Assembly: GCF_003574835.2 (NCBI RefSeq)
Contig: NZ_CP063196.1
Location: 1,922,001-1,986,000 of the forward strand
Length of the DNA stretch: 64,000 bases
Source of the DNA: Thermobifida halotolerans
GTDB taxonomy: Bacteria; Actinomycetota; Actinomycetes; Streptosporangiales; Streptosporangiaceae
Direction: 5' to 3'
Part shown: piece by piece, positions 36,569 through 55,128 of the stretch
Layout: every line of letters starts with the position of its first letter
Position numbering within the stretch: position 1 is the stretch's first letter
Translations under genes and position numbers: made by a program
Notes under the pieces: generated by a model
What the model saw: the letters and a program-made list of their open reading frames with translations, nothing else
What the model was told of the DNA's origin: nothing
The model's database searches: none

Positions 36569-37305
36569 CCGTGGTCGACCTCCTCACAGGGTTCTCCTCG
36601 TCCGCGGCGCGTGGCGACCCTCCTGTTGCCGGTCGTCCGGTGAACGCGCGGAGAGGCACAACAGATAACCGGAGTCGGGGTGTCCAAACCAGTGCCGGAA
36701 AGTCAGGGGGAGGGGCGCGGCATTCCAGGCAGGCGTCCGGGGTGGGTGGGCGGTCAGGGCACCCCCGGCGCCGCGTCCGCCCGCGCCTCCACCCTCCCGC
36801 GCTTTCCGGACCGGCCCGCGCCAGAGGGGGTGCCGGATTGCGGTGTCCGATGTTCTTCCGGCCCGTTCGTCTGTGGGGGCGCGGGTGGGTCGGCTCCGGG
36901 GGCGCCTCCCACTCCGGCGCCAGCCCGTGGCGGGCCGCCTCGGACGCCGGGGTGCAACGCCCCGCCCGCCCGGCTTCCCGGCGTTGGTGGCCGAGCGCGG
37001 GGAACGGGCGGGATGCCCCGAAGAGACCGCGCGGCCCCGACCGGGGGCGATCACCGCGTGGACGTCGACGGCGGTCCCGGCGCCGACCGCGTGTGGTACG
37101 TTCGTCCCGTCGGACGGCCCCTGGCCGGTCACGGACAGAAGGGGAGGTGGGTTGATGGTTGCCGTGTGGACCGCTGCCCTGCGCAGTGCCCGGACCATCC
37201 TCACGTCCCGGGCCCCGGTCTGACCTGAGTTCTCCGCCCGCCGATCCCGTCGGCGCGGACGGTCGCCCACGTGTGCATCGGGGCCCCTTTCCTCAGGGGT
37301 ACACA
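36569..37305. other. Intergenic region with a possible leader ORF and weak repeat similarity
   Basis: There is no full gene. A 22-codon ORF at 37155-37223 (VAVWTAALRSARTILTSRA) has GGGGAGG upstream and precedes the methyltransferase fusion by 82 bp; it could be a leader peptide. Bases about 36710-36960 share scattered blocks, in the same order, with the MITE at 54725-55117, for example GGCATTCCA and GGCGCCAG. This may be a very old copy. Confidence 0.35.
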
Positions 37306-38592
37306 TTGTCCGAACCTTCAGTCGATTCCGTCACCGAGGCCTTCTTCGCCCTGCACCGCGCCCTGCCCCGCCAGGGGCCGGGATCGGACGCCACGACCCG
37401 CCGTCTGTTGGAGCTCGCCGGTCCGCTGCCGCCGCGTCCCCGCGTGCTGGACGCGGGGTGCGGCCCCGGCCGCTCCGCCCTGCTGCTGGCCGCCGAGGCC
37501 GACGCGGACGTCGTCGCCGTCGACCTGCACCAGCCCTTCCTCGACGAACTGGACGCCGCCGCGGCACGGCACGGCCTGACCGAGCGCGTCACCACGCTCA
37601 ACCGCTCGATGGCGGACCTGCCCCACCCCGACCACAGCTTCGACGCGGTCTGGGCCGAGGGGTCGGTCTACACCATCGGCTTCGACACCGCCCTGAGGGC
37701 GTGGCGCCGCCTGCTCGCCCCCGGCGGCGTCCTGGTCGTCACCGAGATCGAGTGGGCCACCTGCGCGCCCTCCCGGAAGGCGCGCGACTTCTGGGAGGGC
37801 GTCTACCCGCTGCGTACCACGCGGGGCAACGTCTCGGCGGCGGAGGCCGCAGGCTACCGGGTGGACGCCCTGTGGCCGCTTCCCGACGACGACTGGTGGC
37901 GGGAGTACTACACCCCGCTCACCGAGCGGATCGCGACGGCCGATCCCACCCGGCCCGGGATGGCCCGGGCCGTCGCCGCGCTGCGGGAGGAGATCGCCCT
38001 GCGGCGCGAGCACGGCGCGCACTACCGCTACACCGGCTACGTCCTGCGCCCCGACACCGCGGCGCAGAACGGTGCGGCCGGGCCCGCCACCTGGACCGTC
38101 CGCGCCGAGGCCCCCGGGGACGCCGCCGCGGTCCGGGACATCCACCTGGCCGCCTTCCCCACCGCCGAGGAGGCCGACCTGGTCGACGCCCTGCGCGGCG
38201 ACGCCGACGCGTGGATTCCCGGTCTGTCCCTGGTGGTCCAGGCTCCTGACGGCGCCCTCGTCGGGCACGTCCTGTTCACCCGCTGCCACGTGGACGGCCA
38301 CCCCGCGCTGGCGCTCGCCCCCTGCGCGGTGCTGCCCGCCCACCAGCGCAGGGGCGCGGGAACCTCCGCCATTCGCGCCGGTCTGGCGGCCGCCCGCGCC
38401 AGGGGCGAGAACCTCGTTCTCGTCCTCGGGCACGCCGACTACTACCCGAGGTTCGGGTTCGCTCCGGCCTCGCGCTGGGGCATCCGCCCGCCCTTCGAGG
38501 TTCCCGACGAGGCGATGATGGGCCTCGCCCTGGACCCGACCCGTCCCGTCCCCTCCGGCGTCATCGCCTATCCGGCCGCGTTCGGGGTCTGA
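37306..38592 (+). CDS. SAM-dependent methyltransferase fused to GNAT acetyltransferase
   Basis: A protein of 428 aa from a TTG at 37306 that has AGGGG upstream; the frame is open further 5' but that part looks non-coding. The N-terminal half is a class I methyltransferase (VLDAGCGPGRSALLLAAEADADVVAVDL as motif I, FDAVWAEGSVYTIGF, and LAPGGVLVVTE). Residues from about 265 are a YhbS-like GNAT domain (LALAPCAVLPAHQRRGAG, which binds acetyl-CoA, and GHADYYPRFGFAPA). Both halves look intact. Two transferases in one chain suggests successive modification of one substrate or a recent gene fusion; the substrate is unknown. Confidence 0.85.
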   Translation: MSEPSVDSVTEAFFALHRALPRQGPGSDATTRRLLELAGPLPPRPRVLDAGCGPGRSALLLAAEADADVVAVDLHQPFLDELDAAAARHGLTERVTTLNRSMADLPHPDHSFDAVWAEGSVYTIGFDTALRAWRRLLAPGGVLVVTEIEWATCAPSRKARDFWEGVYPLRTTRGNVSAAEAAGYRVDALWPLPDDDWWREYYTPLTERIATADPTRPGMARAVAALREEIALRREHGAHYRYTGYVLRPDTAAQNGAAGPATWTVRAEAPGDAAAVRDIHLAAFPTAEEADLVDALRGDADAWIPGLSLVVQAPDGALVGHVLFTRCHVDGHPALALAPCAVLPAHQRRGAGTSAIRAGLAAARARGENLVLVLGHADYYPRFGFAPASRWGIRPPFEVPDEAMMGLALDPTRPVPSGVIAYPAAFGV

Positions 38593-38619
38593 CCGGTTCC
38601 GCCCCGGGCGGCAGGCGGC

Positions 38620-38676
38620 GGGGAGGCGCGGCGGCCGGGACGCTCCGCAGGGGTGTTCCGGCCGCCGCGCCTCCCC
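38620..38676. terminator. Bidirectional terminator, 19-bp perfect stem
   Basis: Bases 38620-38638 pair exactly with 38658-38676 across a 19-base loop. The arm reaches the stop codon of the convergent gene, so it serves both transcripts. Confidence 0.85.
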
Positions 38677-39656
38677 TACTCGCCGAGGTCGAGGGTGAAA
38701 CCGTGGGCCGCGAGCTCGGTGAGGAACTCGACGGGATCGACGGCCTGCTCGACGTGCCGCACTCCGGCGGGCAGGTCGGGCAGCCGCCGGGCGAGGAGCG
38801 CGGCGGCCAGGCCGGTGGCGCGGCTCTGCCGGTGCCCGCCGAACGCCGCCCGCGCCGTCCCGGCGACGGCGGTCACGGCGAACCCGTCGCCGCCGACGTG
38901 GAGCCCGCCCAGCACGGCCAGGAGGACGCCGCGTATCCGGGGGTGCCGCAGCAGACGGGCGACCGCGGGTCGACCGCCCGCCGCGAGCAGCGCGGTGGCG
39001 GCGCGCGAGTCCAGGCACAGCCCGGTCCGGGCGTCCTCGATCCCGAGCGTGTCGGGCAGGGTGTACTGGTCGGAGAAGGGGAACCGGCGGACGGTGCGCC
39101 GCCCGTGGGGCGGGGGGAAGTCCTCGCGCCACGAGCCGGGCGGTCCGGCCAGGCCGTCCAGGGTCCAGTCGAGGGCCGCGGGGCCGTGCTCCTCGCCCGC
39201 GCCCAGCAGCACGCCGACGCGCACCTCCCGCGCCCCCGAGCGGGCGACGCAGTGCTTGGCCAGCAGGTTGGTCACCCCGGGCACCAGGCCGACGCTGAGC
39301 AGTGCCGCCGCTCCGCGCTCCCGGGCCAGGCCGTCGAGGGCGCGGACCGCTGAGAGCAGGCGGTGGTCGGCAGAGACGTCCAGGTAGTGGACGCCCCCTT
39401 CCAGACAGGTCCGGGCCACCCGGGGGTTGTCCCGGTCGACGCACATGAGGACGGCGTCGGCGCCCGCCACGGCCCGGGCCACGTCGGCCGGGTCGGAGGC
39501 GTCCAGGCGCAGCGCCTCGGTTCCGGGGACCGGTCGGGCCCGGTCCGGGTGGCGTCCGGCGACGACAACCGTCGCGCCGGGCAGGAGCCGGGTGAGCGCG
39601 GTGGCGGCCTCGCGGCCGACGGCACCGTATCCGCCGATGACGACGACGCGGTTCAC
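38676..39656 (-). CDS. Saccharopine dehydrogenase-like NAD(P)-binding protein
   Basis: A protein of 326 aa. The GTG at 39656 opens NRVVVIGGYGAVGREAATALTRLLPGATVVVAGR, the Rossmann start of the saccharopine dehydrogenase-like family. It continues with LRLDASDPADVARAVAGADAVLMCV and SVGLVPGVTNLLAKHCV. The substrate domain is divergent, so this is probably not a lysine-pathway enzyme. Its start overlaps the stop of the gutted MFS gene (GTGA), so it was once the second gene of a TetR-controlled operon. Confidence 0.82.
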   Translation of the reverse strand: MNRVVVIGGYGAVGREAATALTRLLPGATVVVAGRHPDRARPVPGTEALRLDASDPADVARAVAGADAVLMCVDRDNPRVARTCLEGGVHYLDVSADHRLLSAVRALDGLARERGAAALLSVGLVPGVTNLLAKHCVARSGAREVRVGVLLGAGEEHGPAALDWTLDGLAGPPGSWREDFPPPHGRRTVRRFPFSDQYTLPDTLGIEDARTGLCLDSRAATALLAAGGRPAVARLLRHPRIRGVLLAVLGGLHVGGDGFAVTAVAGTARAAFGGHRQSRATGLAAALLARRLPDLPAGVRHVEQAVDPVEFLTELAAHGFTLDLGE

Positions 39657-39898
39657 GGCTTCCCGGTCCCTTCGGGAGCGGCGGCGAGGAGCGGTCCCGT
39701 GGCGCCGAAGGTCGCCCCCAGCCGCCGTCCGGTGTTGGGCAGGCCCGATACGGTTCCGGACCGCCCCTCGGGCGCAGCGCGCGCCGCGGGGGCGGAGAGG
39801 GCGAGCGCCGCGGCCGTCTCCGGCAGTGCGACGTTGACGACCGGCACTTCGAGAAGGACGGCGAGTCCGACCGGGGTGAGCGGTGGCGGGGTGAGCGG
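39653..39898 (-). pseudogene. Gutted MFS (DHA2-type) efflux gene
   Basis: The frame reads PVGLAVLLEVPVVNVALPE, like the first membrane helix of DHA2 drug transporters (xLDxTVVNVALP). After about 20 low-complexity codons comes SGTVSGLPNTGRRLGATFGATGPLL, like their C-terminal motif (SGxLNTGRQxGGxxGxAxxG). About 400 codons between are missing, and the only upstream ATG (39914) is out of frame. TetR is divergent, as usual for such pumps. Identification rests on these two motifs. Confidence 0.55.
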
Positions 39899-39912
39899 CC
39901 CACCCCGACTCC

Positions 39913-39958
39913 ATGTTTTCGTAGTCACACTACAAGAATGTTTTCGTAGTGGCACTAT
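39913..39958. promoter_or_regulatory. Tandem TetR operators
   Basis: Two direct copies of ATGTTTTCGTAGT (39913 and 39938) are spaced 25 bp apart. Each leads into an inverted repeat GTAGT-N3-ACTA(C/T). They lie just upstream of the TetR gene and across the promoter of the divergent MFS stub. Confidence 0.8.
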
Positions 39959-39961
39959 AGT
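39956..39961 (+). promoter_or_regulatory. -10 hexamer TATAGT of a probable leaderless TetR transcript
   Basis: TATAGT ends 7 bases before the ATG at 39969, and there is no Shine-Dalgarno sequence. Transcription would start at or next to the A of the start codon. It overlaps the second operator, consistent with autorepression. Confidence 0.6.
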
Positions 39962-39968
39962 CAAGTTC

Positions 39969-40646
39969 ATGAGTGAGACGTCACAACCGGCTCCGCGCCG
40001 CCCGTCCCGCGCGGCCACCGACCGCGGAGACGGACGCGCCGCCCGTGCCCGGGCCACCCGCGCCCGCATCCTCGCCGCGGCCACCCGACTGTTCACCGCC
40101 TCCGGCTACACCGCCACGAGCATCGGCGCCATCGCCGCCGAGGCGGGGGTCGGCGAGCAGACCGTGTACTACTCCTTCGGCACCAAGCGCGCCGTCCTCA
40201 CCCGCGCCCTCGACGTGGCCGTGGCCGGCGACGACGCCCCGGTCCCCACGCTGGAGCGGCCGTGGGTGCGCGCCGCACTGGACACCCCCGACCCCGCCGA
40301 GCAGGTCCGACTGCAGGTGGCCGGGGCGGGCGACATCCACCTGCGCGCCGCGCCACTGCTGGACGTGGTGCGCAGTGCCGCGGCCACCGACCCCGACCTG
40401 GCCGAGGTCTGGAACACCAACGTCGAGCAGCGGCACACCGTCCAACGCGTCCTCGCCGAGGCGCTGGCGCGCAAGGCGCCGCTGCGCGGCGGCATGGGCG
40501 TCGACGACGCCGCCGACATCGCCCTGGCGCTGCTGAGTCCGGAGACCTACCACCTGCTGGTGCGCGTGCGGGGCTGGACGCACGAGCGCTGGCGGTCGTG
40601 GGCCGCCGACGCGCTCCTGCGCCAACTGCTCGACACATCCCGTTGA
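39969..40646 (+). CDS. TetR-family transcriptional repressor
   Basis: A protein of 225 aa. After a basic N-terminus of about 30 residues the TetR HTH is clear: ARILAAATRLFTASGYTATSIGAIAAEAGVGEQTVYYSFGTKRAVL. The C-terminal ligand domain is helical and not assignable. It represses itself and, originally, the divergent MFS gene and the saccharopine dehydrogenase-like gene through the tandem operators. Because the pump is destroyed, the intact repressor now has only the dehydrogenase-like gene as a visible target. Confidence 0.9.
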   Translation: MSETSQPAPRRPSRAATDRGDGRAARARATRARILAAATRLFTASGYTATSIGAIAAEAGVGEQTVYYSFGTKRAVLTRALDVAVAGDDAPVPTLERPWVRAALDTPDPAEQVRLQVAGAGDIHLRAAPLLDVVRSAAATDPDLAEVWNTNVEQRHTVQRVLAEALARKAPLRGGMGVDDAADIALALLSPETYHLLVRVRGWTHERWRSWAADALLRQLLDTSR

Positions 40647-40805
40647 CCGTTGCTGATTCCGTGGTCGGATATCAGCATTCCGCGCATTTCTGCACGGAAG
40701 GTCCGTGCCGGTGTCACCACAACGGGGGTTGGGTGTCCTGACGACGGTCTCTCGCTTCCTTCCGCGCACGCGGTTCTGCGCCACCGGCCCGCCCCGCCCC
40801 GGCCC

Positions 40806-42173
40806 TCAGGCCGGGGCGGGGAGTGCGGGTCTTAGGGTCGGCTCTGCGAGGCTTCGACACTGGCGTGTCCCGGTCTCCGGCCACTCCGGTACCGGTCGTG
40901 CTGGCCACCCAAGCGGCGAGGTTCCGTGCGGCGTTGTGGTCCCGATCCACCACCAGGCCACAGGCGTCGCAGGTGAAGGTGCGCACGACAGGGCAAGCCT
41001 GGCTTTCGCCGCCCCGCATCCGCTGCACGTCTTGGACGAGGCGAACCACCGGTCCGCCACGATGAGCCGTCCCCCGTTCCACGCGGTCTTGTAGGCGAGC
41101 TGGCGGCGGATCTCACCGAACCCGGCATCCGCGACCACACGGGACAGGCGCCGGTTGGCCAGCATCCCCGCCACGTTCAGGTCTTCCACCACCACCGTCC
41201 CGTACTCGCGGGCCAGAAACGTGGTGAGCTGGTGCAGCGCGTCGGTGCGCAGGTTGGCGACCCGATCATGGATGCGGTTGCGTTCGGCGTCGGCCCTGCG
41301 CCACCGCCTCGACGCCTCCTGACGACTACGCCGGTCGGGGCCGCGGCGGCGCGACACCGTGCGGCAGGCGCGGCGCAACCGCTTCAGCTCACCCTCCAGG
41401 TGGCGGGGGTTGGCGACGTGGCGGACCCGCCCGCTCGTGTCGGCGACCACCGCGAGGGTCCGCACCCCCAGGTCCACACCGGCCACCGCCCCGGGCCGCC
41501 CGGGGGTGGCGGTGGCGCGTTCGACCTCGACCTGGAAGGACACGAACCAGCGGCCCCGAGTGTGGCAGACGGTTGCTGACAGGATCCGCGCACTGCCGTT
41601 CGCGAGGCGGCGATGCAGCCTGCGGGTGTTCTCGTGGGTGCGGATCCGGCCGATCACGGGCAGCACCACGTGCCGCCGGTCATCGGCGACACGGAGGGCG
41701 CCGGTGGTGAACCGACACGCCAGGCGAGCCCGGTGCTTGGACGTGAACCGGGGGCGGCCCACCGGCGCTCCGGCGCGCTCGCCGCGCCTGGAGCGGGCGT
41801 AGTGGTCGAACGCCGCCGCCGCGGCGGCGAACCCGGTGTTGTACGCCTCCTTGGAATTTGCGCTCCACCAGTCACAGAACCGGGGATCATGCCTCCTGGT
41901 GGCGTTGCCCGCCCTGCGCAGAGCCGGCAGCGACCAGGCCCGCCACGGGGTGCGGTCGGCCTCGGCAATACCGTAGGACTCCTCGGCGCGGCGCTGCTCC
42001 CAGGAGGCCAGCACATGCGCCACCGCCCAGTTGTACGCGGCGCGCGCCGCCCCGCAGTGCGACCTGAGCCGCGCCCCAGCCTCGGCGCCCGGGTCCAGAG
42101 CGAACCGGTACGCCTGGACCACACGCCCCGGCGCGGGCGCGAACCCGCGCCCCTTCTTCGGCCTGGCGCTCAT
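40806..42173 (-). pseudogene. tnpB: TnpB RNA-guided nuclease, frameshifted
   Basis: The frame starts at 42173, overlapping the TnpA stop by 4 bases. The RuvC Asp motif is present (AVAGVDLGVRTLAVVAD), as are the Glu motif (TVVVEDLNVAGM) and the first zinc pair (SSKTCSGCGAAKARLAL). Near 40988 one base is missing. The second zinc pair and final RuvC Asp (FTCDACGLVVDRDHNAARNLA) therefore fall in another frame that runs on to 40714. The protein as encoded ends in an unrelated tail and should be inactive as a nuclease. Confidence 0.88.
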
Positions 42174-42739
42174 CCGTCCACCGCCGTCGCCGCATCAATC
42201 GCGGCCTGGGCGCGCCCGCGGGCCGATGGGTGCCCGTACAGGCGGGCACACAACACGGTCAGCACCTCGGTCATGTCCCGCACCAGATCATCGTCGGTCT
42301 CCTCGGCGTCCAGCACGACCAGGCGCCGCCCGCACGCCGCCAGCGCCGATTCCAGGTGTTCGACACCGAACCGTGCCAGCCGGTCACGGTGCTCGACCAC
42401 GATCACCGACACCCCGGCATCGCCCAGGAGCCGGTGCAGCTTCCCGCGCCGCCCGTTCAGTCCGGACCCGACCTCGGTGACCACCTCACACACCGCGAAC
42501 CCCCGGGCGGTGGCTTCCTGCACGACCCGGGACACCTGCCGGTCCAACTCGGCCTACTGCTCAGCCGAGGCCACCCGGCAGTAGGCCACCGTGCGGCCCT
42601 CGGCCCGGGGAGGCTCCGCAACGATCCACGTTCCGGAGGGCGCCTGGTGGACGGGCACGGGCATGCGCCCGCTCCTCACCCACCGCCACGCGGTCTGACA
42701 GCTCACGCCCCGCTGGCGCGCCCACTCCGAAAGCTTCAC
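42170..42739 (-). pseudogene. tnpA: IS607 serine recombinase (TnpA) with in-frame amber stop
   Basis: From a GTG at 42739 the frame reads a MerR-like HTH (VKLSEWARQRGVSCQTAWRW) and the resolvase start (TVAYCRVASAEQ), which contains the catalytic Ser. A TAG codon at 42554-42556 follows. Beyond it the resolvase domain continues in the same frame (LDRQVSRVVQEATARGF, then VIVVEHRDRLARFGVEHLE). A single base change explains the stop. It is a nonsense mutant unless TAG is read through. Confidence 0.88.
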
Positions 42740-42807
42740 GCCACCATTACACGACCACAGACGACTACGTCTGGTCATGAGACCTGGAACAGATGTCAAC
42801 CCCCGTT

Positions 42808-43433
42808 CCCCTCCCCACCGGGCGGGGATTCCCGCCGGGGCCGTGAGACCGCCTCGGCGGACCCCGGCCCCGGGTGCGGCACCGGGAAGCCGGGGCCGGG
42901 CCGAGGAGGTCCCGGGGGTGGTCGGGGGCGGATCACCACGGGGTGGCGGCACCCCCCTCCGGCACAGCGCCCTCACCGGTGTCCTGCCCTCCCCTGGGTC
43001 CGCGGCCGCGGACTTTCCTCCCCATTCCCGGCTGTCCGCATCCGGCCACCGGAAAATCCATCGGAGACGGCATCCCGCTGTCCAGCTTTTTCATCAGAAG
43101 TTAATAATAGTTCTCACGACGCCGCCGATTTCTCATTCATTTCCCGCTTGACAGGGCACACCCCGCAAGGCGAATATCCTGGGGGCCGAAAGAGGGAGAG
43201 AGTATCGCAATATCGCGCCTGAGGACCTTCAGCCTTTCCGGACCGTTCGGACGGATTTTTGCGTCCGACAACTCCACTGTCAGATCTTGAGCCGTGTGAC
43301 GCTCCTCACAGAGGTCGTCGCGCCTTCGAAGTCACCCTGTCAAGGCGGCGGGGATCTCTCGGACCATTTCCGCAGGAAACCAGAACGCCGTTCAGTCGCC
43401 AGCCCTTCAGGGCACTCACCGAAGGAAAAGATC
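42808..43433. other. Non-coding region with long leader of the DRE-TIM operon
   Basis: No gene is visible. The 5' half is a GC-rich flank of the IS607 element. From 43080 the sequence becomes AT-rich and contains the candidate promoter. The 250-base stretch from there to the TTG at 43434 would be an unusually long leader. It includes a 6-bp stem at 43248-43253/43262-43267 with a T-rich loop. I could not match it to a known riboswitch. Confidence 0.45.
43148..43180 (+). promoter_or_regulatory. Candidate promoter of the DRE-TIM operon
   Basis: TTGACA at 43148-43153 is a perfect -35 hexamer. GAATATCCT at 43172-43180 offers a -10 18-21 bp downstream, depending on register. It is the best sigma-70-like match in the intergenic region. 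Confidence 0.45.
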
Positions 43434-44702
43434 TTGTCTCTTTCCATGCCAGCCGGACACACTCCCCGATACACCGATTTCGAGATCGTCGGTCTCTCCG
43501 ACGAGACCATGCGCGAAGGCGGCGAAAGGGCACTCTACGGTGCCGACGACGAAAGCAAGCTGAAACTCATCGAGGCCCTCGCGGAGGCGGGTGTCCGCGA
43601 CATCGACCTCGGCTCGGGGCTCACCGAACCGAAATTCCTGCTCCGCTGTCTCCACTCGCAGCACCTGCTCGGCCGGATTCCCGAGGACACGCAGTTCGTC
43701 TTCAACCTGACACTGAAGACATGGGAGCCGCTGTGCGAGGCTCTCCAGATCATTCCCAGGGACTACCTGGCGAAGATCCAGGTCAGTCTGGGAATGGTGG
43801 AGCACCGCCAGAGCGAGAAACTCCTGGAGCGGGCGCACGAGGCGCTGTCCTCCATCGGTGTCGGCTCCTTCCGCGCCAGCATCCTCAACGCGTTCTCGCA
43901 CGAGATCGACGAGGACCGGTACGCGTTCATCAACGAGCAGATCGAACGCGTCCGCCAGTTGGGGATCTCCCTGGTCCGGGTGAACGACTCCATCGGCACC
44001 CTGTATCCGGAGTCGACGGCGGTCCTGGCCTCGAACCTGGTCAAGGACAACCCGGACATCACCTTCTACCTGCACTCCCACGACGACCGAGGGCTGGGGC
44101 TGGCCAACTCCCTCGCTTCGATCTTCCACGGCTTCCAGATGGTCGAGGGCGGAGTCGCCGGATTCGGCAACCGCGCCGGACTGGCGAACGTCGAGGTGCT
44201 GAGCCAGATCTTCGCCGAGCGCCGCATCAGCGTCGCCGGCACCGTCCTGGACACCGAGAAGCTCTCCCGAGCCGCGGCGCTCGCGGAGGAGGTCTTCATG
44301 GTGCTGCCGAACGTCTACCGCCCGGTCAGCGGCATGCTGGTGCGCAACGAGAACGCGGGCATCGTCAACGTCCCCGACTACCTGGGGGTCAGTCGACCGG
44401 TCGACTACTTCCTGAACCCCATCGGGATCTTTCCGACAACGGTCGCCCAGGTGCTGGAGAACAGCGGATTCCCCGAGGAGTACCTCCGGGACGAGGAGTT
44501 CCTCGCCGAGGTCACCCGGCGCCTCGTGGGCTACATGGAGGACACCCTCCACCCGGCCAAGCGGGAGCGCTTCGACGCGCTGCTCCACCAGGTCCGGGAG
44601 TTCTACACCGACATCGTCCGACTCGACGCCGTGCACAACGTCGCTCTGGAGGTGCTGCAGGACCGCAGCAGCACCGCGGTGGCGCTGCAGGCCGGAGTCT
44701 GA
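43434..44702 (+). CDS. DRE-TIM metallolyase (HMG-CoA lyase / citramalate-homocitrate synthase superfamily)
   Basis: A protein of 422 aa. The TTG at 43434 is preferred because GAAGGAAAAG lies 3-13 bases upstream; an ATG at 43446 is too far from it. The superfamily signature is visible: SDETMREGGERAL (Asp and catalytic Arg, with the second Asp replaced by Glu), LHSHDDRGLGLAN (the H-x-H metal ligands) and GFGNRAGLANVE. The C-terminal region is longer than in a simple lyase and lacks an obvious LeuA regulatory domain. It condenses or cleaves an acyl-CoA/2-oxo acid pair; which one cannot be told. It is the first gene of a four-gene operon. Confidence 0.82.
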   Translation: MSLSMPAGHTPRYTDFEIVGLSDETMREGGERALYGADDESKLKLIEALAEAGVRDIDLGSGLTEPKFLLRCLHSQHLLGRIPEDTQFVFNLTLKTWEPLCEALQIIPRDYLAKIQVSLGMVEHRQSEKLLERAHEALSSIGVGSFRASILNAFSHEIDEDRYAFINEQIERVRQLGISLVRVNDSIGTLYPESTAVLASNLVKDNPDITFYLHSHDDRGLGLANSLASIFHGFQMVEGGVAGFGNRAGLANVEVLSQIFAERRISVAGTVLDTEKLSRAAALAEEVFMVLPNVYRPVSGMLVRNENAGIVNVPDYLGVSRPVDYFLNPIGIFPTTVAQVLENSGFPEEYLRDEEFLAEVTRRLVGYMEDTLHPAKRERFDALLHQVREFYTDIVRLDAVHNVALEVLQDRSSTAVALQAGV

Positions 44703-44814
44703 CCCCTCCTGTCCCGGGCGCGCCGGACGGACTCACCCGCCCGGCGCGCCGCCGAGGACGCCGCAGAGATACCGATAAGCCGCTTTCCGCCGGAGTCTAG
44801 GGGGTGGACCTCTG

Positions 44815-45837
44815 ATGGGGGTCGGACCGCTGCTGTCGACGCTGGTCCCGCTGTTCGCCATCGTCCTCATCGGATACCTGGCCAGCTATTTCGGGTCCTT
44901 CCAGGGCAACGCCCAGAAGGCCATCAACGACTTCGTCTTCTACATAGCCCTGCCCGCGCTGCTGTTCGGGGCGGTCGTCAACTCCGGACTGTCCGACGGG
45001 ATCTCGTGGGCGTTCATCGGGGCGAACCTCACCAACCTGGTCATCGGATCGGTGATCGGACTGCTCGGCGGTCTGGCGCTGTTCCGCCGGGAACTGCCCC
45101 GGGCGCTGACGACGTCGATGCTCGCGGGCTACGGAAACGTCGCCTACCTCGGCGTCCCGCTGCTGGTGAGCGCGGTCGGGGCGCAGGCGGCGCTGCCCGT
45201 GGCGCTGGGGCAGCTCATACACAACATGTTCTTCATGGTCTTCTACCCCCTGTGCGTCACCCTGGCCGTGCGGCGCTCGCGCGTGGTGAACGCGGCGAAG
45301 CAGCGCGGACGGGCAGAAGGCGCGGTGGCGGTCGAAGAGCGCTCCCCCGCCCCCGGAGGCGAGAGCACGGGACGGGCCATCTTCCGCAGCGTCGTCCTCA
45401 ACCCGGTCAGCCTGTCGGTGGTCGCCGGCCTGCTCTTCGCTCTCCTCGGCCTGCGGTTGCCGGGCCCGGTGGCCGACACGGTCGAGATGCTCGGCGGTGC
45501 CGCGGCGCCCGGAGCGCTCTTCGCGGTCGGACTCACCCTGCGCCGGGCCGTGACGGCGCTCCAGGAGGGCAGCGTGAGCCCGACCGAACTGGGGTTCACC
45601 GTGGCGGTGAAGCTCGCCGTCATGCCGCTCGTCGCGGTCGGCCTGGTCACGTGGGTCTTCTCCATGCCCGAGGTGTGGGCGTTCACCACCGTCGTGATGT
45701 GCGGACTGCCCAACGCCGCGACCGCCTACGTCCTGGCGCAGCAGAAGGAGTCCGGAGCCCAGCAGGCCGCCGCGGCGGTGGTCGTCACCAGTGTGCTCTC
45801 ACTGATCACCATTCCGCTCGTCGCCGTGGTCGCCTGA
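44815..45837 (+). CDS. AEC-family (auxin efflux carrier-like) transporter
   Basis: A protein of 340 aa. About ten membrane helices fall in two halves around a charged loop near residues 150-185. LVPLFAIVLIGYLASYFGSF at the start and ALPALLF, GYGNVAYLGVPL and CGLPNAATAYVLA are typical of the family. Bacterial members export or exchange malonate, malate or other carboxylates. Between a metallolyase and an FAH hydrolase, transport of a dicarboxylic or oxo acid is likely. It is 112 bp after the metallolyase and 27 bp before the next gene. Confidence 0.9.
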   Translation: MGVGPLLSTLVPLFAIVLIGYLASYFGSFQGNAQKAINDFVFYIALPALLFGAVVNSGLSDGISWAFIGANLTNLVIGSVIGLLGGLALFRRELPRALTTSMLAGYGNVAYLGVPLLVSAVGAQAALPVALGQLIHNMFFMVFYPLCVTLAVRRSRVVNAAKQRGRAEGAVAVEERSPAPGGESTGRAIFRSVVLNPVSLSVVAGLLFALLGLRLPGPVADTVEMLGGAAAPGALFAVGLTLRRAVTALQEGSVSPTELGFTVAVKLAVMPLVAVGLVTWVFSMPEVWAFTTVVMCGLPNAATAYVLAQQKESGAQQAAAAVVVTSVLSLITIPLVAVVA

Positions 45838-45864
45838 GGCGGCGGAAAGCACAGAGGAGGAACC

Positions 45865-46161
45865 ATGCTCGTCGCGTTCTCCGTGAGCCCGCTCGACATC
45901 GGCGAGTCCGTGGGAGCGGCTGTCGCCCGAGCCGTGAAGGTCGTGCGCGACAGCGGACTGCCCAACCGCACCGACGCGATGTTCACCACCGTGGAAGGCG
46001 AGTGGGACGAGGTCATGAGGGTCGTCAAGGAGGCGGTCCAGGCGGCCGGAGAGGGATCCGGCAGGGTCACCCTGGTCCTCAAGGCCGACATCCGTCCGAA
46101 CGTGACCGACGCGCTCGACGGCAAGGTCGCCTCGGTCGAGGCGCACCTGCGCACCATGTGA
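45865..46161 (+). CDS. MTH1187/YkoF-type thiamine-binding family protein
   Basis: A protein of 98 aa, the family length, from the ATG at 45865 with AGAGGAGG upstream. The ferredoxin-like fold shows LVAFSVSPLDIGESVGAAVARAVKVVRDSGL, then TTVEGEWDEVMRVVKEAVQAA and VTLVLKADIRPN. Members bind thiamine or a related small molecule and form tetramers. Presence in this operon hints at a thiamine-dependent or metabolite-sensing step, but there is no direct evidence. Confidence 0.87.
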   Translation: MLVAFSVSPLDIGESVGAAVARAVKVVRDSGLPNRTDAMFTTVEGEWDEVMRVVKEAVQAAGEGSGRVTLVLKADIRPNVTDALDGKVASVEAHLRTM

Positions 46162-46187
46162 TCCGGAACGCCAGGAGGAGATCCCCC

Positions 46188-47048
46188 ATGCGTCTTATGC
46201 GCGTAGGCCGCGCCGGCGCGGAGATCCCGGCCGTGTACGCCGGGAAGGACCAATACATCGACGTCTCCGACCTCGTCGAGGACTTCGACGCGGCCTTCTT
46301 CGAGGCGGGTGGGTCCGCCCTGCTCGCGGACCCCGTCGCCGAACGGCTGGCCGCGGGGGCGTCCCGGCCCCTGGCGGGGCAGCGGGTGGGCGCGCCCGTC
46401 GCGCGCCCCCACCAGATCCTGTGCATCGGGCTGAACTACACCGACCACGCGCAGGCGACCGGGCAGAGCCTGCCGGAGGAGCCGGTGCTCGCCACGAAGG
46501 CCCCCAACACCCTGACGGGCCCCGAGGACCCCCTGGTCCTCCCCCGCGGCTCGACCAGGACCGACTGGGAGGTGGAGCTCGGCGTCGTCGTCGGCCGCCG
46601 CGTGAGCTACCTGCCCGACGAGCGGGCCGCGGAGGAGGCGATCGCCGGATACGTGCTCGTCAACGACGTCACCGAGCGGTTCCTCCAGTTCGAACGCGGC
46701 GGGCAGTGGAGCAAGGGCAAGTCCGCGGCCACGTTCAACCCGTGCGGCCCCTACCTGGTGACCCGGGACGAGCTCCCCGACGTCTCGGACGTGGGCCTGT
46801 GGCTGGAGGTGAACGGGCAGCGCAGGCAGCACGGGTCCACCAGGAACATGGTCTTCTCCCCCGCCCACCTCGTGTACTACCTCAGCCAGTTCATGGTGCT
46901 GGAACCCGGTGACCTGATCAACACGGGAACGCCGGCGGGCACGGGGATGTCCTCCGATCCGCCCTCCTACCTCGCCCCCGGTGACGTGGTGGAGCTGGGG
47001 GGCGACCCGTTGGGGACGCAGCGCCACACGGTCGTCGCGTCTCCGTGA
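46188..47048 (+). CDS. Fumarylacetoacetate hydrolase (FAH)-family enzyme
   Basis: A protein of 286 aa. The ATG at 46188 has AGGAGGAGA upstream, 26 bp after the previous gene. A short N-terminal domain is followed by the FAH fold from about residue 75: ILCIGLNYTDHAQATG, the metal-binding DWEVELGVVVGR, and the signature NDVTERFLQFERGGQWSKGKS. LEPGDLINTGTPAGTG closes it. These Mg-dependent enzymes hydrolyse acylpyruvates or decarboxylate/isomerise 2-oxo diacids. With a DRE-TIM lyase it could process a 2-oxo-4-acyl intermediate; this is inference. Confidence 0.9.
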   Translation: MRLMRVGRAGAEIPAVYAGKDQYIDVSDLVEDFDAAFFEAGGSALLADPVAERLAAGASRPLAGQRVGAPVARPHQILCIGLNYTDHAQATGQSLPEEPVLATKAPNTLTGPEDPLVLPRGSTRTDWEVELGVVVGRRVSYLPDERAAEEAIAGYVLVNDVTERFLQFERGGQWSKGKSAATFNPCGPYLVTRDELPDVSDVGLWLEVNGQRRQHGSTRNMVFSPAHLVYYLSQFMVLEPGDLINTGTPAGTGMSSDPPSYLAPGDVVELGGDPLGTQRHTVVASP

Positions 47049-47133
47049 GGCGGTGCGGGCCCGGCGCACCGCCGTGTCCTGCGCGGCACCCGCACCGCCC
47101 CCAGTGCGGGGTGGTGCGCGTGCCCGTGGACGC

Positions 47134-47167
47134 GGGGAGCGGGCCCCGGCTCCGAGGCCCGCTCCCC
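47134..47167. terminator. Bidirectional hairpin terminator
   Basis: A perfect 12-bp stem (47134-47145 with 47156-47167) lies between the convergent FAH and GH106 genes. A second GC hairpin at about 47178-47206 follows it on the GH106 side. Confidence 0.8.
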
Positions 47168-47209
47168 TTGCTCCCACCGCCCCGGTCCACCGCGGGCCGG
47201 GGCGGCCTC

Positions 47210-50191
47210 TCAGAGTTCGACCTGCCCGTAGGGGACCAGTCGCACCGGGCCGATGAGTCCGTACTTCTGCCGGGCCGCGCCGCCGTACACGTCGGGCCGG
47301 AAGACCCGCATGCGGTTGATCAGGGTCGTGGCGACCTCGATCTCGATGGTGTTCTTCCCCTTCACCAGGTGGGGGCCGACGTCGACGCGCCGGGTGAGCT
47401 GGTCGGCCGGGGGCAGCGGCGTGCCGTTGACCGTCACCCGGAAGGTGTCGGTCACCTCCCCCAACTCCAGGTGGGCGCCGACCCCACCGGTCCACCCCTC
47501 GCCGAGGTCGACGGTGGTGGTGTAGCGGCCGATGCCCGAGACATCGGCGAGGTCGGGCAGATCGGTCCAGGGGGCCGGGGAGTCCAGGGTCAGCTCGTGG
47601 CTGCTGATGTCGGTCTCGGTGGCGCTCGCTCCCGGACGCCAGTCCTCCACCTCCAGCGTCCAGCCGGTGAGTTCGACGGTGTCGCCGACCTTGTCGACGC
47701 GCACGCCGTCGGTGCCGCCGTCGGCGTAGGTGACGGTGTAGTCGCCCGGCTCGGCGGCCCGCACCACGGGCTTGCCGCCGGAGAGGACGACATCGTCGGC
47801 GTCGGTGCCGCTCACCACGGCCCATCCGGGCCTGCCGTCGCCCACCAGGTTGTGCTTGGCCAGGGCGATCGCGCTGGACGCCCCGGGGGCGAGCCGGACG
47901 CGCACCGTGACCCGGTCCCCGTCCACCCGGTGGACGACGATGGGGGTGATCTGGCCGCTCCACAGGTCCAGGGCGTAGGGACGGGCGTCCTTCACCTCGG
48001 TGGTGATGGTCACCTCGTGGTCGACGGCCTGGGTGTCGGAGCCGTTGGCGAAGTAGTACAGCTCCACGTGCTTGTCGCGGCGCTTGGCGTGCAGCAGCGG
48101 GGAGGACTGCGCGTAGCTGACGGCGGGCCGCAGGCCCAGCGCGGCGATGCCGTCGGCGATGTCGTCGCGGGTGGCGACCTGCTGGACGCCGGGTTGGGCG
48201 AGCAGGTCGGCCATGACCCCGGCCAGCTCGGTGTTGTCCGTCTGGTCGACGCCGGGCGCCTCGGGGGCGCTCCAGTCGCCGACGATGACCATCGGCAGCC
48301 CGTCCCGGGCGTAGCGCAGCAGGCGGCGCGCGGTCTCCAGCGGCATGGTGGTCGCGCGGCCGCTGAACGCGTCGCCCTCGAAGACGAGCAGGCGGTAGGC
48401 CGGGCCGTCGGGGGCGAGCCGCCCCTTCTTGACCTTGGGGTCGGTCACCTCCAGCAGGCGGGGGCTGACGAACTGGTGGGTCCAGCCGAGCTTGACGCCG
48501 GTGCTGCTGAAGTAGGCCGCGCCGAACCCCGAGCCGGCGTAGCCCTTCTGGCGCAGGAAGGCGACGTCGACCGTTGAGGCGCCGGTGCGCAGCAGGTACT
48601 GGGCGCGGGCGAAGAACCCGGCCACGTCGGGGGCGTGCCGCCAGGTAGGGTGGCGCGGCCCCCAGGACTCGCTGTAGCCGATGCCTCCGCTGTAGGGGGT
48701 GAAGGCGGCGAAGCCGGGCCACTGGGCGCCGGGGGCGTCGGCGTAGGAGAAGCCGTGCAGGACCGCCTGGTTGACGCCGGCCGCGTACTCGCGGGAGATC
48801 GTGCGGACCGTGCGCGCCCAGGTGGTGCTGTAGGAGCCGCCGTAGACGGCGCCCGCCTCGCTGGACAGGATCGTGTTGCCGCCCAGGTCGCGGCCGCCCG
48901 CCAGGGAGCGGAAGTCGTCGAGGTTCTTGAAGCCGAGCGACTCGCCCTCGGGGATGTCCACGATGGCGGCCTTGGTGACCGCGTCGGTCTGCAGGCCGTA
49001 GGGCTGGATCCGGTACTGCAGGCCCAGCTTGTCGGCCCACTTCTTCAGCGGCTTGATGTGCTTGTCGATGTAGAGCTGGCTGAGGGTGTCGTTGTAGTCG
49101 TCCAGCAGTCGGCGGTCGGTTGTCGAGTCGAAGGAGAACACCCGATTCTCGTCCTGCTGGATGGCCAGCGGCAGGTAGGGCTTGAGGGCGTATCCGGTGT
49201 GCCGCTCGAAGTCCTCCGGCATGGTGGTGGTCCACAGGGTGGCGTCGGTCTCCATCTCGATGGAGTCCTCGAAGAGCGCGCCGCCCGCCTTCTTGAGGAG
49301 TGCGCGGACGCGGTTGTTGAGGATCGCCTCTTCCCAGAAGTCGATGACCGCCTGGGTTCCGGTGGTGCTGAAGTGGTCGACCACGTAGGACACCGGTTCG
49401 GTGTGCGGGCCCCGTTCCGGGCGCTGGCCGGAGCCGCGCTCCCAGTAGGAGATGACCGCCCAGGTGGCGTCGTCGGGCGGGCTCCAGGTGAGGTTTCCGT
49501 CGGTGACGCGGTCGGTGACCTCCTCGACGGTGTCGGCGACGAGCTTGTAGGGCCGCTTGTCGGTGGAGGCGCCGTCGGCGAGCCGGGCGACCTGGACGGC
49601 GACCAGTCTGCGCTCGGTGACGCCCTCGGCGGGTTCGACGACCGGTTCGGGCACCGCGCCCGCGAACTCCTGTCCGCCGGAGAGGAACTCCACGCCGTGG
49701 GCGAGTTCACGCACGGCCGCGGTGTCCTGCGGGGTGATCGTGGGGACGGCGGCGGGCCAGGCCGGGCCGATGGTGAGGTCGATGGTGACGCCGCGCTTCT
49801 CGGCGCGGGCCAGTGCCGCCTCCAGTGCGCTCACCCAGGCGGGGGTGCCCCAGCCGCTGTTGGCGGGGTCGAGGTCCTCGGTGGCGCTGTGGTGGACGTC
49901 GGCGATCTCCAGACCACCGAAGCCGGCGTCGGCGACCTGGTCGACCTCGCGTTCGATCTCGGCGGGGTCGACCAGGCCGTGCGGCCACCACCAGCGGAAC
50001 TTCGCCTGCGCGGCGCGGCCCGGGGCGGGGAACTCGGCGGCGAGGTCACCGGGGGCGGCCAGTGCGGGGGTTCCGCCCAGGGCGGGCGGCACGGCGGCGG
50101 CTGCGCCCAGGGCCGCGCCCAGGCCGAGGAACAGCCGCCGGGAGGGTTGGCGAAGTGGCTTGCGGGGGTCTTCGCCGTGCGAATCGCTCAT
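47210..50191 (-). CDS. GH106 alpha-L-rhamnosidase, Tat-secreted
   Basis: A protein of 993 aa. The ATG at 50191 has GAAGGACC upstream. The N-terminus carries a twin-arginine signal (SRRLFLGLGAALGAAAAV) ending in ALAA near residue 50. FRWWWPHGLVDPAEIEREVDQVADAGFGGLEIAD is the GH106 start, and the long catalytic barrel runs to about residue 700. Beta-sandwich domains close the protein. It should remove alpha-L-rhamnose outside the cell, complementing the intracellular GH78 enzyme. Its promoter has the perfect palindrome GAAACGTTTC (50311-50320), like the sites near GH78 and the ABC importer, so the same LacI protein probably controls it. Confidence 0.88.
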   Translation of the reverse strand: MSDSHGEDPRKPLRQPSRRLFLGLGAALGAAAAVPPALGGTPALAAPGDLAAEFPAPGRAAQAKFRWWWPHGLVDPAEIEREVDQVADAGFGGLEIADVHHSATEDLDPANSGWGTPAWVSALEAALARAEKRGVTIDLTIGPAWPAAVPTITPQDTAAVRELAHGVEFLSGGQEFAGAVPEPVVEPAEGVTERRLVAVQVARLADGASTDKRPYKLVADTVEEVTDRVTDGNLTWSPPDDATWAVISYWERGSGQRPERGPHTEPVSYVVDHFSTTGTQAVIDFWEEAILNNRVRALLKKAGGALFEDSIEMETDATLWTTTMPEDFERHTGYALKPYLPLAIQQDENRVFSFDSTTDRRLLDDYNDTLSQLYIDKHIKPLKKWADKLGLQYRIQPYGLQTDAVTKAAIVDIPEGESLGFKNLDDFRSLAGGRDLGGNTILSSEAGAVYGGSYSTTWARTVRTISREYAAGVNQAVLHGFSYADAPGAQWPGFAAFTPYSGGIGYSESWGPRHPTWRHAPDVAGFFARAQYLLRTGASTVDVAFLRQKGYAGSGFGAAYFSSTGVKLGWTHQFVSPRLLEVTDPKVKKGRLAPDGPAYRLLVFEGDAFSGRATTMPLETARRLLRYARDGLPMVIVGDWSAPEAPGVDQTDNTELAGVMADLLAQPGVQQVATRDDIADGIAALGLRPAVSYAQSSPLLHAKRRDKHVELYYFANGSDTQAVDHEVTITTEVKDARPYALDLWSGQITPIVVHRVDGDRVTVRVRLAPGASSAIALAKHNLVGDGRPGWAVVSGTDADDVVLSGGKPVVRAAEPGDYTVTYADGGTDGVRVDKVGDTVELTGWTLEVEDWRPGASATETDISSHELTLDSPAPWTDLPDLADVSGIGRYTTTVDLGEGWTGGVGAHLELGEVTDTFRVTVNGTPLPPADQLTRRVDVGPHLVKGKNTIEIEVATTLINRMRVFRPDVYGGAARQKYGLIGPVRLVPYGQVEL

Positions 50192-50308
50192 GCTGGTCCT
50201 TCTCGGTTTCCGACAGTTGCGCCGGGTGTGCGGGGGGTGGCCGAGGGGTGGTCCGCGGACGTCGTCCGAGTCGGCTTCCCGGAGTCGACCGCGGACCCCG
50301 ACGGCCGG

Positions 50309-50322
50309 TTGAAACGTTTCAG
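50309..50322. promoter_or_regulatory. LacI-type operator-like site 3 (TTGAAACGTTTCAG)
   Basis: A perfect 10-bp palindrome with central CG lies 118 bp upstream of the GH106 start. It overlaps the -10 position of a minus-strand promoter (TTGTCA, 17 bp, TTTCAA). It matches sites 1 and 2 in the TTGAAACG core. Confidence 0.7.
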
Positions 50323-51017
50323 CGAAATTACTGACAAGGATTTCTTCGGCGCAACGACGTGGCCACTTCCGGCCAATTTTCCGCCCCACCCGATTCCGCA
50401 TTGCGAAATCGAGACATCCGCCACTCGGTGGCGGCGAGCCGGACCTCAGAGGATCTCCCAGATCAGAGCGGGTAGCACGCACTCGGAAGACGACTCCCCA
50501 CACCCCCGCCCACCCGATCTCCGAAGACCGGAGGTGGATGTGCTGTCAGCCACACCCCTCCGACGCGGGTAAACCACTCAGAAAGTGTGGTATTTAACCG
50601 CCGCCACCATGACCGCAGGTGAACAAGGGCGCTCAGGGGGTGAACCGCTTCCCCCACCCGCTTGGCGAACGTTTTATTCAGCGCGCCGCTCCGGCTCGCG
50701 TCGGAGAGCGGAGGGGGCGCTCCCGCTCTGGCAGGACCCCCGCCAGAGCGGCACCGGGCGGAACACGGCCGCTGCGCCGACACCGGCGGCGTCCGCGCCG
50801 CCTTCGAGGGCGTCTGGACGACCTGGAGCACCGTTCGCGCCGTCGCCACGACCGCCGCGTCCGCCTCCTGCTGCGCGCCCTGGTCCCGCGCGGCTCCGAC
50901 TCCCCGGCAGCCCGACGCGCTGGAGGGACTCGGAAGGACGCGTGCCCGTCCGGGCGCCGGGCACGCGCCGAGGGCCCACCGTCCGGTGAGCCCTCGGGAT
51001 TCCCTGCGCTCCGAGGG
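50323..51017. other. Gene-free region between GH106 and the aldo/keto reductase
   Basis: The GH106 promoter occupies the first part. An AT-rich patch near 50570-50600 could be another promoter, but no gene follows on either strand. The GC-rich part from 50690 has open frames without recognisable protein. Confidence 0.5.
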
Positions 51018-51992
51018 TCAGACGACACCCTCGGGAGTGGCGCCCTCGATCGGCACCGCGTCGGCGGTGAGCCGGTCGATTGCGGCGAGGTCCTCGGCGG
51101 TGAGGGTGGTCTCCGCCGCGGCGAGGCTGTTGTCGATGTTGTGGAGGTTGCGCGCTCCGACGATCGCCACGTGCACGCCGGGCTGCGCCAGCACCCACGC
51201 GATCGCCAGTTGGCTGACCGTGAGCCCTCCGGCCCCCGCCAACTCCGCCAGCCGGTCGACGACCGCGAGGTTGTGGCGCAGTGTCTCACCGCGGAACGCC
51301 GAGGAGTGCGCGCGCCAGTCGCCGGGCCCGAACGCGGTGTCCGCCGTCATGCGGCCGGTGAGCAGTCCGCTGGCCAGGGGGCTGTAGGCCAGCACTCCGA
51401 TGTCGTGCTTGCGGGCATAGGGCAGGATCTCGTCCTCGACCCCACGGCGGAACAGGTGGTACGGCGGTTGCAGCGTCTCGACCGGGCGGAGGGAGTCGAG
51501 GGCGGCCAACTGGGCGGCGTCGTGGTTGGACACGCCGACGTGGCGGACCTTGCCCTCGTCGACCAGTTCCTGGAGGGCGGCGGCGGTCTCCTCCGCCGGG
51601 GTCGCCGGGTCGGGCCAGTGCACCTGGTAGAGGTCGATGTGGTCGACGCCGAGAGCACGCAGGCTGGACTCGGCGCCCTGCCGCAGCCAGGCGCGCCGGG
51701 CGTCGCGCGGGCGGTCGGGATTCGTGGTGAGGCCTCCCTTGGTGGCGATCACCAGGCTGTCCCGGTCGCGGCGGAGTTCGTCGCGCAGCGCCGCGCCCAG
51801 CACCCGCTCCGCCTGTCCGAACCCGTAGGCCTGCGCGGTGTCGAAGAGGTTCACGCCGAGTTCGCGGGCGCGCCGGACGGCCCGCACCGCGTCCCGTTCG
51901 TCGAAGAACCCCCAGTCCCCGCCGAACTGCCAGGTCCCGAAGGCGATCCGGGAGACGTCCAGACCTGTCCTGCCCAACAAGGTGTAGCGCAT
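51018..51992 (-). CDS. Aldo/keto reductase
   Basis: A protein of 324 aa from the ATG at 51992 (RYTLLGRTGLDVSRIAFGTWQFGG). The catalytic tetrad is visible: Asp and Tyr in NLFDTAQAYGFGQAE, Lys in LVIATKGG, and His in LYQVHWPDP. The NADPH site SNHDAAQL and the C-terminal AIVGARNLHNIDNSLAA are typical. It reduces aldehydes or keto sugars in the cytosol. It lies alone between the GH106 and GH3 genes, on the same strand as both, but the gaps (over 200 bp) argue against one operon. Confidence 0.93.
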   Translation of the reverse strand: MRYTLLGRTGLDVSRIAFGTWQFGGDWGFFDERDAVRAVRRARELGVNLFDTAQAYGFGQAERVLGAALRDELRRDRDSLVIATKGGLTTNPDRPRDARRAWLRQGAESSLRALGVDHIDLYQVHWPDPATPAEETAAALQELVDEGKVRHVGVSNHDAAQLAALDSLRPVETLQPPYHLFRRGVEDEILPYARKHDIGVLAYSPLASGLLTGRMTADTAFGPGDWRAHSSAFRGETLRHNLAVVDRLAELAGAGGLTVSQLAIAWVLAQPGVHVAIVGARNLHNIDNSLAAAETTLTAEDLAAIDRLTADAVPIEGATPEGVV

Positions 51993-52235
51993 ACCTCCAT
52001 GACAGCCCACCGGCGGTCATCCGCCGGCAAGGCGCACCACCTCCAGGCCCCCAGGAAGGACAAAAGGTGGACAACCGGACGCGAGAGTGCCGCCCCGGCC
52101 GGTGAGCCGGAACACGGCGCACCGGGGTGAAGGCCACCTGGAGCTTCCCCGGCCTCCGTCTCTCGGCACCGGCTGGAGGCTCCACCGCCCCGCGCGGAAC
52201 CCGTGGGGCGGGCGGTGGCCCCGACGCCCTCGGGG

Positions 52236-54482: not shown

Positions 54483-54574
54483 CAGCGGCTTCCTTCCTGG
54501 GTGGGTGCCAGTGCGTCGACGGGGTCCCCGGGGCCGTCAAGGCCGGGGGCCTGCGTTGGTCGCAATACCCGGGG

Positions 54575-54655
54575 GTTGCGATCCTCAGCCACCGGGACCA
54601 CCGCGCACCCGCATAGGGGTTGCGGTCCCCAGCCACCACGGAGGGTGGCTACCAC
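54575..54655 (-). CRISPR. CRISPR-like repeat remnant, locus 1
   Basis: A 37-bp unit at 54619-54655 has an internal palindrome (AGCCACC...GGTGGCT) and on the minus strand ends in CCGCAAC. A shortened unit at 54575-54601 shares the first 19 bases and the final CCAC but lacks about 10 bp of the palindrome. The 17 bp between them is too short for a normal spacer. The same 37-bp unit with four differences is found at 62897-62933. No cas genes are in the window. The CRISPR reading is an inference from repeat shape plus the conserved flank. Confidence 0.45.
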
Positions 54656-54725
54656 AGTGTCTGAAGTGCGCAAACACCTCACTGCTCGGCGACACTCACG
54701 ACTCAGAAAGGAATGAGGGTTCTCA
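54656..54725 (-). repeat. Conserved leader-like flank, locus 1
   Basis: 70 bases next to the 37-bp unit are matched without gaps by 62934-63003 with about six differences. This is the position a CRISPR leader would occupy, upstream of the first repeat on the minus strand. Confidence 0.55.
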
Positions 54726-55117: not shown

Positions 55118-55128
55118 CGAGACCAGCT

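Follow-up and report, generated by a model that had tools for sequence, protein, structure and literature searches.

What does a rare set of four adjacent genes do for the actinobacterium that carries it? The set lies at 43434-47048 on the + strand of a 64,000-nucleotide stretch of the Thermobifida halotolerans genome (the window, G000:C1:1922001-1986000, to which unprefixed positions refer); the host shares its family with Nocardiopsis FIRDI 009 and Marinactinospora. It encodes a divergent metallolyase, a membrane carrier, a thiamine-binding-like protein and an enzyme of the FAH superfamily. Comparison with other genomes identifies it as a real, intact, co-conserved, operon-like and self-contained four-gene cassette. 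Judged by alignment, both enzymes keep their metal sites and each is without one catalytic residue of its best-known relatives. We tentatively favour a role in carboxylate metabolism, in which the carrier would serve an aldol-type metallolyase, an FAH decarboxylase or tautomerase devoid of the usual catalytic dyad, and a ligand-binding protein.

Extent and conservation of the cassette

The open reading frames (ORFs) of the window and their Pfam matches agree on four intact genes on one strand, in the set and order that an earlier reading of the letters alone (the sequence-only reading) had proposed:

43434-44702, + strand: divergent DRE-TIM (HMGL-like) metallolyase or aldolase; PF00682 (HMGL-like), 83.9 bits against a cut-off of 29
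44815-45837, + strand: membrane carrier of the auxin efflux carrier (AEC) family, 340 aa; PF03547 (Mem_trans), 126.9 bits against a cut-off of 25.7
45865-46161, + strand: MTH1187/YkoF-type thiamine-binding-like protein, 98 aa; PF01910 (Thiamine_BP), 94.9 bits, and TIGR00106, 55.1 bits against a cut-off of 54.7
46188-47048, + strand: FAH-superfamily enzyme without the dyad Glu (H87...A90), 286 aa; PF01557 (FAA_hydrolase), 219.3 bits

All four proteins score above their Pfam cut-offs; among the NCBIfam families shown, the thiamine-binding-like protein alone does so. From the first gene to the fourth the intergenic gaps are 112, 27 and 26 nt, and the last three genes are as tightly spaced as had been noted.

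The four genes occur in the same order and on the same strand in three other genomes, two of Nocardiopsis (L003 and L004) and that of Marinactinospora thermotolerans (L005); G545 and G440 are the genomes of L003 and L005, and each is counted once. The operon-like grouping is thereby borne out in four genomes, with all reading frames open at every locus. When positions 36001-56000 were compared with these three loci by blastn, each gave a single long match (43434-47039, 43444-47032 and 43435-47023, at 80, 77 and 78%), so that the DNA similarity of 77-80% over 3.6 kb covers almost exactly what lies between the start codon of the lyase gene and the stop codon of the FAH gene. The flanks of the window gave no comparable match with L003-L005, the other matches being scattered and 29-71 bases long. 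Among L003, L004 and L005 themselves the long matches run from 11-15 nt 5' of the start codon to near the last stop; two further matches cover 111 and 29 bases. As the similarity is confined to the four genes, the unit consists of these genes, and leader and flanks differ. The ratio of nonsynonymous to synonymous substitution rates (dN/dS) is 0.13-0.42 in all 24 gene pairs and on average lowest in the lyase (0.18-0.22), and all four genes are under purifying selection. A decaying or chance assembly would suit the patchy distribution and the broken mobile-element remnant directly upstream in the window, but it is already refuted by the open frames at all four loci, by dN/dS below 0.5 throughout and by an order kept in four different surroundings.

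The cassette is rare and patchily distributed. The lyase was found in 3 of 200 genomes of the family (E<=1e-60; the window, FIRDI 009 and Marinactinospora), in 1 of 396 of the phylum at the same threshold (the window itself), in 3 of 394 of the class (E<=1e-45), in 2 of 40 of the genus of FIRDI 009 and 1 of 16 of Tsukamurella (both E<=1e-20), and in 1 of 249 of the order of Tsukamurella (E<=1e-22). A protein search of genome contigs gave four lyase relatives. In total the lyase is present in five genomes and the cassette in four; both are lower bounds, as the scans cover samples and the contig search needed short exact peptide patterns, which undercounts carriers. No deeper relative beyond the five genomes appeared in the family, phylum, class, genus and order samples at these cut-offs. 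In a plasmid collection 151 records match the lyase, none across more than 80% of the query, the best of those listed at 26-27% identity. We found no paper on such a four-gene set, judged by titles and the beginnings of abstracts. The earlier statement that no described pathway with this set was known is upheld to that extent, and the cassette is undescribed as far as the literature searches reach.

The sequence-only reading had begun the locus at 43148, with a single promoter bearing a perfect -35 element. TTGACA is indeed present at 43148, but it lies 5' of the conserved unit, where similarity starts only at the first codon, and a sigma-70 scan of 42900-47400 found no promoter-like site on the + strand. 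Within 500 bp 5' of the first gene, TTGACN occurs on the + strand once in L003 and in neither L004 nor L005. The alignment of the four upstream sequences has a mean column identity of 59%, with the ribosome site and the start as its clearest conserved stretch. The proposed promoter is weak and lacks conservation in the relatives. A conserved promoter or operator in the leader was considered and ruled out, similarity to the window beginning at the start codon. Rfam gave nothing at E<=1 in 42500-47400, nor in L003-L005 at the gathering score. A terminator-like hairpin at 43237-43251 stands between TTGACA and the first gene; two such hairpins were found in the region against 1.5 expected, and we give it no weight.

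Active sites of the two enzymes

The lyase has 422 residues from the conserved start position (TTG at 43434, where L005 has ATG) and 418 from the ATG at 43446, from which its residues are numbered. It is 82-85% identical to its relatives in the other cassettes and 55% to a homologue in Tsukamurella. Among solved structures it is matched best by homocitrate, citramalate and isopropylmalate synthases. None of the cut-offs of the 25 NCBIfam families shown is reached: the best score with a leucine, homocitrate or citramalate synthase model is 68.9 (cut-off 462.9), and TIGR03217 (4-hydroxy-2-oxovalerate aldolase) gives 50.4 (cut-off 286). The lyase was also considered as the LeuA or the citramalate-synthase-like (CimA-like) gene of the host. 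Both are ruled out, LeuA being a separate gene (850 bits, above cut-off) and the CimA-like gene a separate paralogue with 26% identity. With the genes co-conserved and the lyase neither of these, the proposal of a distinct four-gene set stands.

R23, E24, E27, H210 and H212 are invariant in all five lyases. R23, E24, H210 and H212 correspond to the catalytic Arg and the metal ligands of methylthioalkylmalate synthase (MAMS), and E27 stands where MAMS has Gln93 (PMC11532901). The Glu in place of the second Asp of the first motif (DETMREG, E24), remarked on from the sequence, is present in five of five relatives; it is ordinary, since homocitrate synthase 6ktq has Glu there too (DSTLREG). Alignment places GNRAG of the lyase at the position of GER in NifV and in the CimA-like paralogue. 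The C-terminal motif is NENAGIVNVPDYLG in all five lyases (AGIVNVPDYLG in the window). NifV has HESGIHTDG and the CimA-like paralogue HKAGLHASA, whereas none of the five lyases has a His aligned at or beside the place of the general base. The surrounding 62 residues are free of His in four lyases; that of Tsukamurella has one, 19 residues N-terminal of the motif. In MAMS the equivalent His388 probably acts as general base on acetyl-CoA: H388A, H388D and H388E have no detectable activity, and H388N keeps some, reduced 29- to 42-fold (PMC11532901). Because this His is missing, a synthase performing acetyl-CoA Claisen condensation is unlikely. The HMGL-like metallolyase domain is there as proposed, and its chemistry may be of aldol type instead.

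The FAH protein scores best with NF053535 (2,4-didehydro-3-deoxy-L-rhamnonate hydrolase), at 284.8 against a cut-off of 500; a dyad-bearing relative (L091:7779-8639) is likewise under that cut-off, at 319.7. Its best solved relative is 8gsr, and its nearest relatives outside the cassette are 60-65% identical (L033-L041). Motif spacing links its residues to those of FAHD1, and they were also placed on 8gsr. Of 296 class genomes, 124 gave a match, and the residue survey took the best 30 loci among them; three are cassette copies, and the fourth, of L004, was aligned separately. All four cassette proteins have Ala90 at the place of FAHD1 Glu33, with His87 kept, and Ala or Pro at position 181. Glu occupies both places in 26 of the 27 loci outside the cassette. 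The exception, L042, has a deletion across the His-Glu lid dyad and Pro at 181, and is a second dyad-less FAH protein. The metal ligands E128, E130 and D160, together with R164, Q167, K178 and H87, are invariant in the four cassette proteins.

Published work ties the dyad to water. For a 2,4-diketo-acid hydrolase that has been characterised, His83 and Glu86 are assigned to a catalytic triad with water (PMC6336799), and the FAH dyad is linked to bound water in PMC7116474 and PMC8398924, which also give Lys and Gln a part in proton transfer and in conformational control of the substrate in decarboxylation. As the dyad Glu is Ala in all four proteins, a hydrolase is unlikely, and the acylpyruvase-type assignment of the sequence-only reading is not supported. 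We infer from the residues that are kept that the protein may be a decarboxylase or a tautomerase. A tree of 31 rows unites the cassette copies in a single clade (100/99), to which L042 is sister (88/83). The L042 gene (L090 1-1103, G246:C32, at a contig edge) starts 25 nt after a fragment whose only match, a weak one, is to an oxaloacetate-decarboxylating malic enzyme.

These active sites bear on two further explanations. One, which the sequence-only reading had half suggested, is an ordinary acetyl-CoA-dependent synthase of citramalate or homocitrate type paired with an acylpyruvase. The best alignments of the lyase are indeed with homocitrate, citramalate and isopropylmalate synthases, it keeps a C-terminal subdomain, the FAH metal ligands are intact, and an Asn lies beside the lost His, the MAMS Asn variant being weakly active. 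We nevertheless consider this pairing very unlikely, given a general-base His absent from five of five lyases, a dyad Glu absent from four of four FAH proteins and no synthase cut-off reached among the 25 families shown.

The other is a branch of L-rhamnose/L-fucose-type deoxy-sugar acid catabolism, with the lyase cleaving a 2-keto-3-deoxy acid as an aldolase and the FAH protein acting on a 2,4-diketo acid. NF053535 and 8gsr, the best family and the best solved relative of the FAH protein, speak for it, as do its relatives outside the cassette: two of the three neighbourhoods sampled (L091-L093) have an IlvD/Edd-type dehydratase above cut-off, with short-chain dehydrogenases by eye; the listed ORFs of L091 include no dehydratase. 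The next gene downstream in the window is a GH106 alpha-L-rhamnosidase (PF17132, 155.9 bits; 47210-50503, - strand), suggestive beside a rhamnonate-type FAH protein; it is convergent with the cassette, in a flank that has no long match at the other three loci. The cassette itself contains neither dehydratase nor dehydrogenase, the NF053535 score falls short and the dyad Glu is lost. We rate this branch as unlikely.

Carrier and thiamine-binding-like protein

The AEC gene is present in all four cassettes; the window protein scores 105.3 bits with TIGR00946, below the cut-off of 246. At E<=1e-40 its only match among 197 class genomes sampled is the window itself.

The thiamine-binding-like gene is present in two copies in all four cassette genomes and in one copy in Tsukamurella. 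Of 150 family genomes, 112 match it (E<=1e-25), and only those of the window and Marinactinospora, both holders of the cassette, have two copies. The other copy of the window genome lies at G000:C1:3409287-3409577. In three cassette genomes (L024-L026) the other copy adjoins ATP synthase genes, and a cobalamin-adenosyltransferase-like gene is nearby (both by eye). The cassette copies form their own clade (95/91), which fits one duplication, afterwards kept with the cassette. They differ consistently from 32 other copies at positions 2, 17 and 69 only (four of four against at least 85%); a fourth column listed in this comparison is the last residue, which is cut off in the other copies. With three consistent differences only, the putative binding function is probably unchanged.

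Proposed function and comparison with known systems

In the carboxylate-metabolism cassette that we favour, the AEC protein would move a small carboxylate through the membrane, inward or outward. Aldol chemistry would let the DRE-TIM protein, predicted to be unable to activate acetyl-CoA in the usual way, form or cleave a C-C bond adjacent to a 2-oxo acid chelated by the metal; its base may be Glu27, which stands where other subgroups have Gln or His. The resulting 2-oxo (beta-keto) acid would be decarboxylated or tautomerised, and not hydrolysed, by the FAH protein, which has the metal ligands, Arg, Gln and Lys and is without the water-activating dyad. The additional MTH1187-type protein would share the small ligand of its parent and serve as buffer or sensor; the role of sensor or cofactor carrier put forward in the sequence-only reading is thus among those it may have. 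Each enzyme being without a key residue of its well-studied relatives, the reaction of the cassette is probably undescribed. A catabolic role, with uptake followed by cleavage and decarboxylation, seems somewhat more likely than the main rival, export of a product. A more specific form of the proposal, a portable pathway of two repurposed enzymes (a DRE-TIM aldolase with a Glu base and an FAH protein dedicated to 2-oxo-acid decarboxylation or tautomerisation) with a duplicated MTH1187 protein binding substrate or product, is more doubtful.

Several points weigh against the favoured proposal. The FAH-type oxaloacetate decarboxylases FAHD1 and Cg1458 possess the dyad (PMC8398924, PMC6336799), and replacing certain FAHD1 residues, left unspecified in the statement, by Ala is reported to cut decarboxylase activity strongly (PMC7116474). 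Loss of the dyad is thus no signature of a decarboxylase, and our confidence is lowered by the retention of the dyad in the known enzymes. L042 sits on a long branch and joins the cassette clade with support of 88/83, and the malic-enzyme match beside it (21.6 bits against a cut-off of 326) comes from a fragment of 74 residues at the edge of a contig, in which Pfam finds nothing. Asn308 of the lyase adjoins the expected place of the His, so that residual Claisen chemistry is possible by analogy with the weakly active MAMS H388N variant. The AlphaFold model of the lyase is poor (mean pLDDT 51.4), and the active sites are consequently read from alignments and motif spacing alone.

The main rival is a biosynthetic cassette in which the lyase and the FAH protein make an unusual small acid, the AEC protein exports it, and the extra thiamine-binding-like protein is a spare target of the product or sequesters it in self-protection. 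Such a role would suit an accessory, patchily distributed unit, the second thiamine-binding-like copy (confined, among 150 family genomes, to two that carry the cassette, and present in four of four cassette genomes) and its consistent departure from 32 relatives at three positions only. It also draws on Tsukamurella sp. TY48. There the lyase ORF (55% identity), preceded by an MFS gene, shares 4 nt with the gene of a PanE-type reductase (TIGR00745, 212.6, above cut-off) and lies about 5.6 kb from a set of FabH, ACP, AvrD, acyltransferase and FAD-binding monooxygenase-type genes (L006 14846-17237; L094 3176-9264, the same region). This set resembles the core of the methylenomycin cluster (MmyC, MmyA and the AvrD-like MmyD; PMC12593393). 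But the locus is not the cassette, with no AEC, thiamine-binding-like or FAH gene within its 17 kb, and the lyase may not belong to the set nearby. Furthermore, two of three sampled FAH loci outside the cassette look like sugar-acid catabolism, and none of the four genes is a resistance or regulator gene. On balance we regard biosynthesis as doubtful. The 2-oxo-acid reductase beside the Tsukamurella lyase agrees with a 2-oxo-acid product, in a single case.

The neighbours of the cassette differ from locus to locus: a GNAT gene in L003, a P450 gene and an integrase fragment in L004, a glycosyltransferase 28 gene in L005 and the rhamnosidase in the window. The fragment in L004 (8224-8601, Nocardiopsis sp. 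ATB16-24) is the C-terminal part of a phage integrase (PF00589, 33.2 bits), 36 nt 3' of the cassette, and is a possible trace of its movement. The remnant directly 5' of the cassette in the window (40806-42976, - strand), presumably IS607-like, contains OrfB/TnpB (PF01385, PF07282). Its resolvase-domain ORF (PF00239, 42170-42547) is parted by an in-frame stop from the preceding ORF, which has no Pfam match, and the TnpB zinc ribbon, judged by eye, finishes in another frame. The element looks inactive.

Both enzymes belong to heavily used annotation families, and as each is without a residue on which the named activity of its family depends, the activities assigned automatically (synthase, hydrolase) are probably wrong. 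The doubling of the MTH1187-type protein ties a widespread protein to one small pathway and makes its ligand testable; a pathway of repurposed enzymes, if true, would give a physiological handle on that family. With the exact unit fixed at four genes by comparison, the whole can be expressed.

The lyase shares the HMGL-like domain, the catalytic Arg, the metal-binding Glu/Asp and the HxH motif with the DRE-TIM metallolyases (homocitrate, citramalate and isopropylmalate/methylthioalkylmalate synthases, HMG-CoA lyase and 4-hydroxy-2-oxovalerate aldolase), and a C-terminal subdomain in matching position with the Claisen-condensing subgroup. Unlike these relatives, it is without the general-base His, has Glu27 at the Gln position of MAMS and has GNRAG where NifV and the CimA-like protein have GER; it is 20-27% identical to the annotated relatives compared. 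The FAH protein has the fold family, metal ligands, Arg, Gln, Lys and lid His of L-2,4-diketo-3-deoxyrhamnonate hydrolase (8gsr; NF053535) and of FAHD1-type acylpyruvases and oxaloacetate decarboxylases, but differs in the dyad Glu (Ala), in Glu181 (Ala or Pro) and in gene neighbourhood. The thiamine-binding-like protein passes TIGR00106 and keeps nearly all consistently conserved actinobacterial positions, as expected of MTH1187/YkoF-type proteins (1lxn, 1yqh); unlike them, it is an additional copy inside a metabolic cassette. Carboxylate utilisation operons of the citrate/malate type pair a carrier with a lyase and an oxaloacetate decarboxylase. If the proposed roles are right, the cassette would be organised alike, with transport, C-C cleavage and decarboxylation, but its lyase and decarboxylase would come from families other than citrate lyase and malic enzyme.

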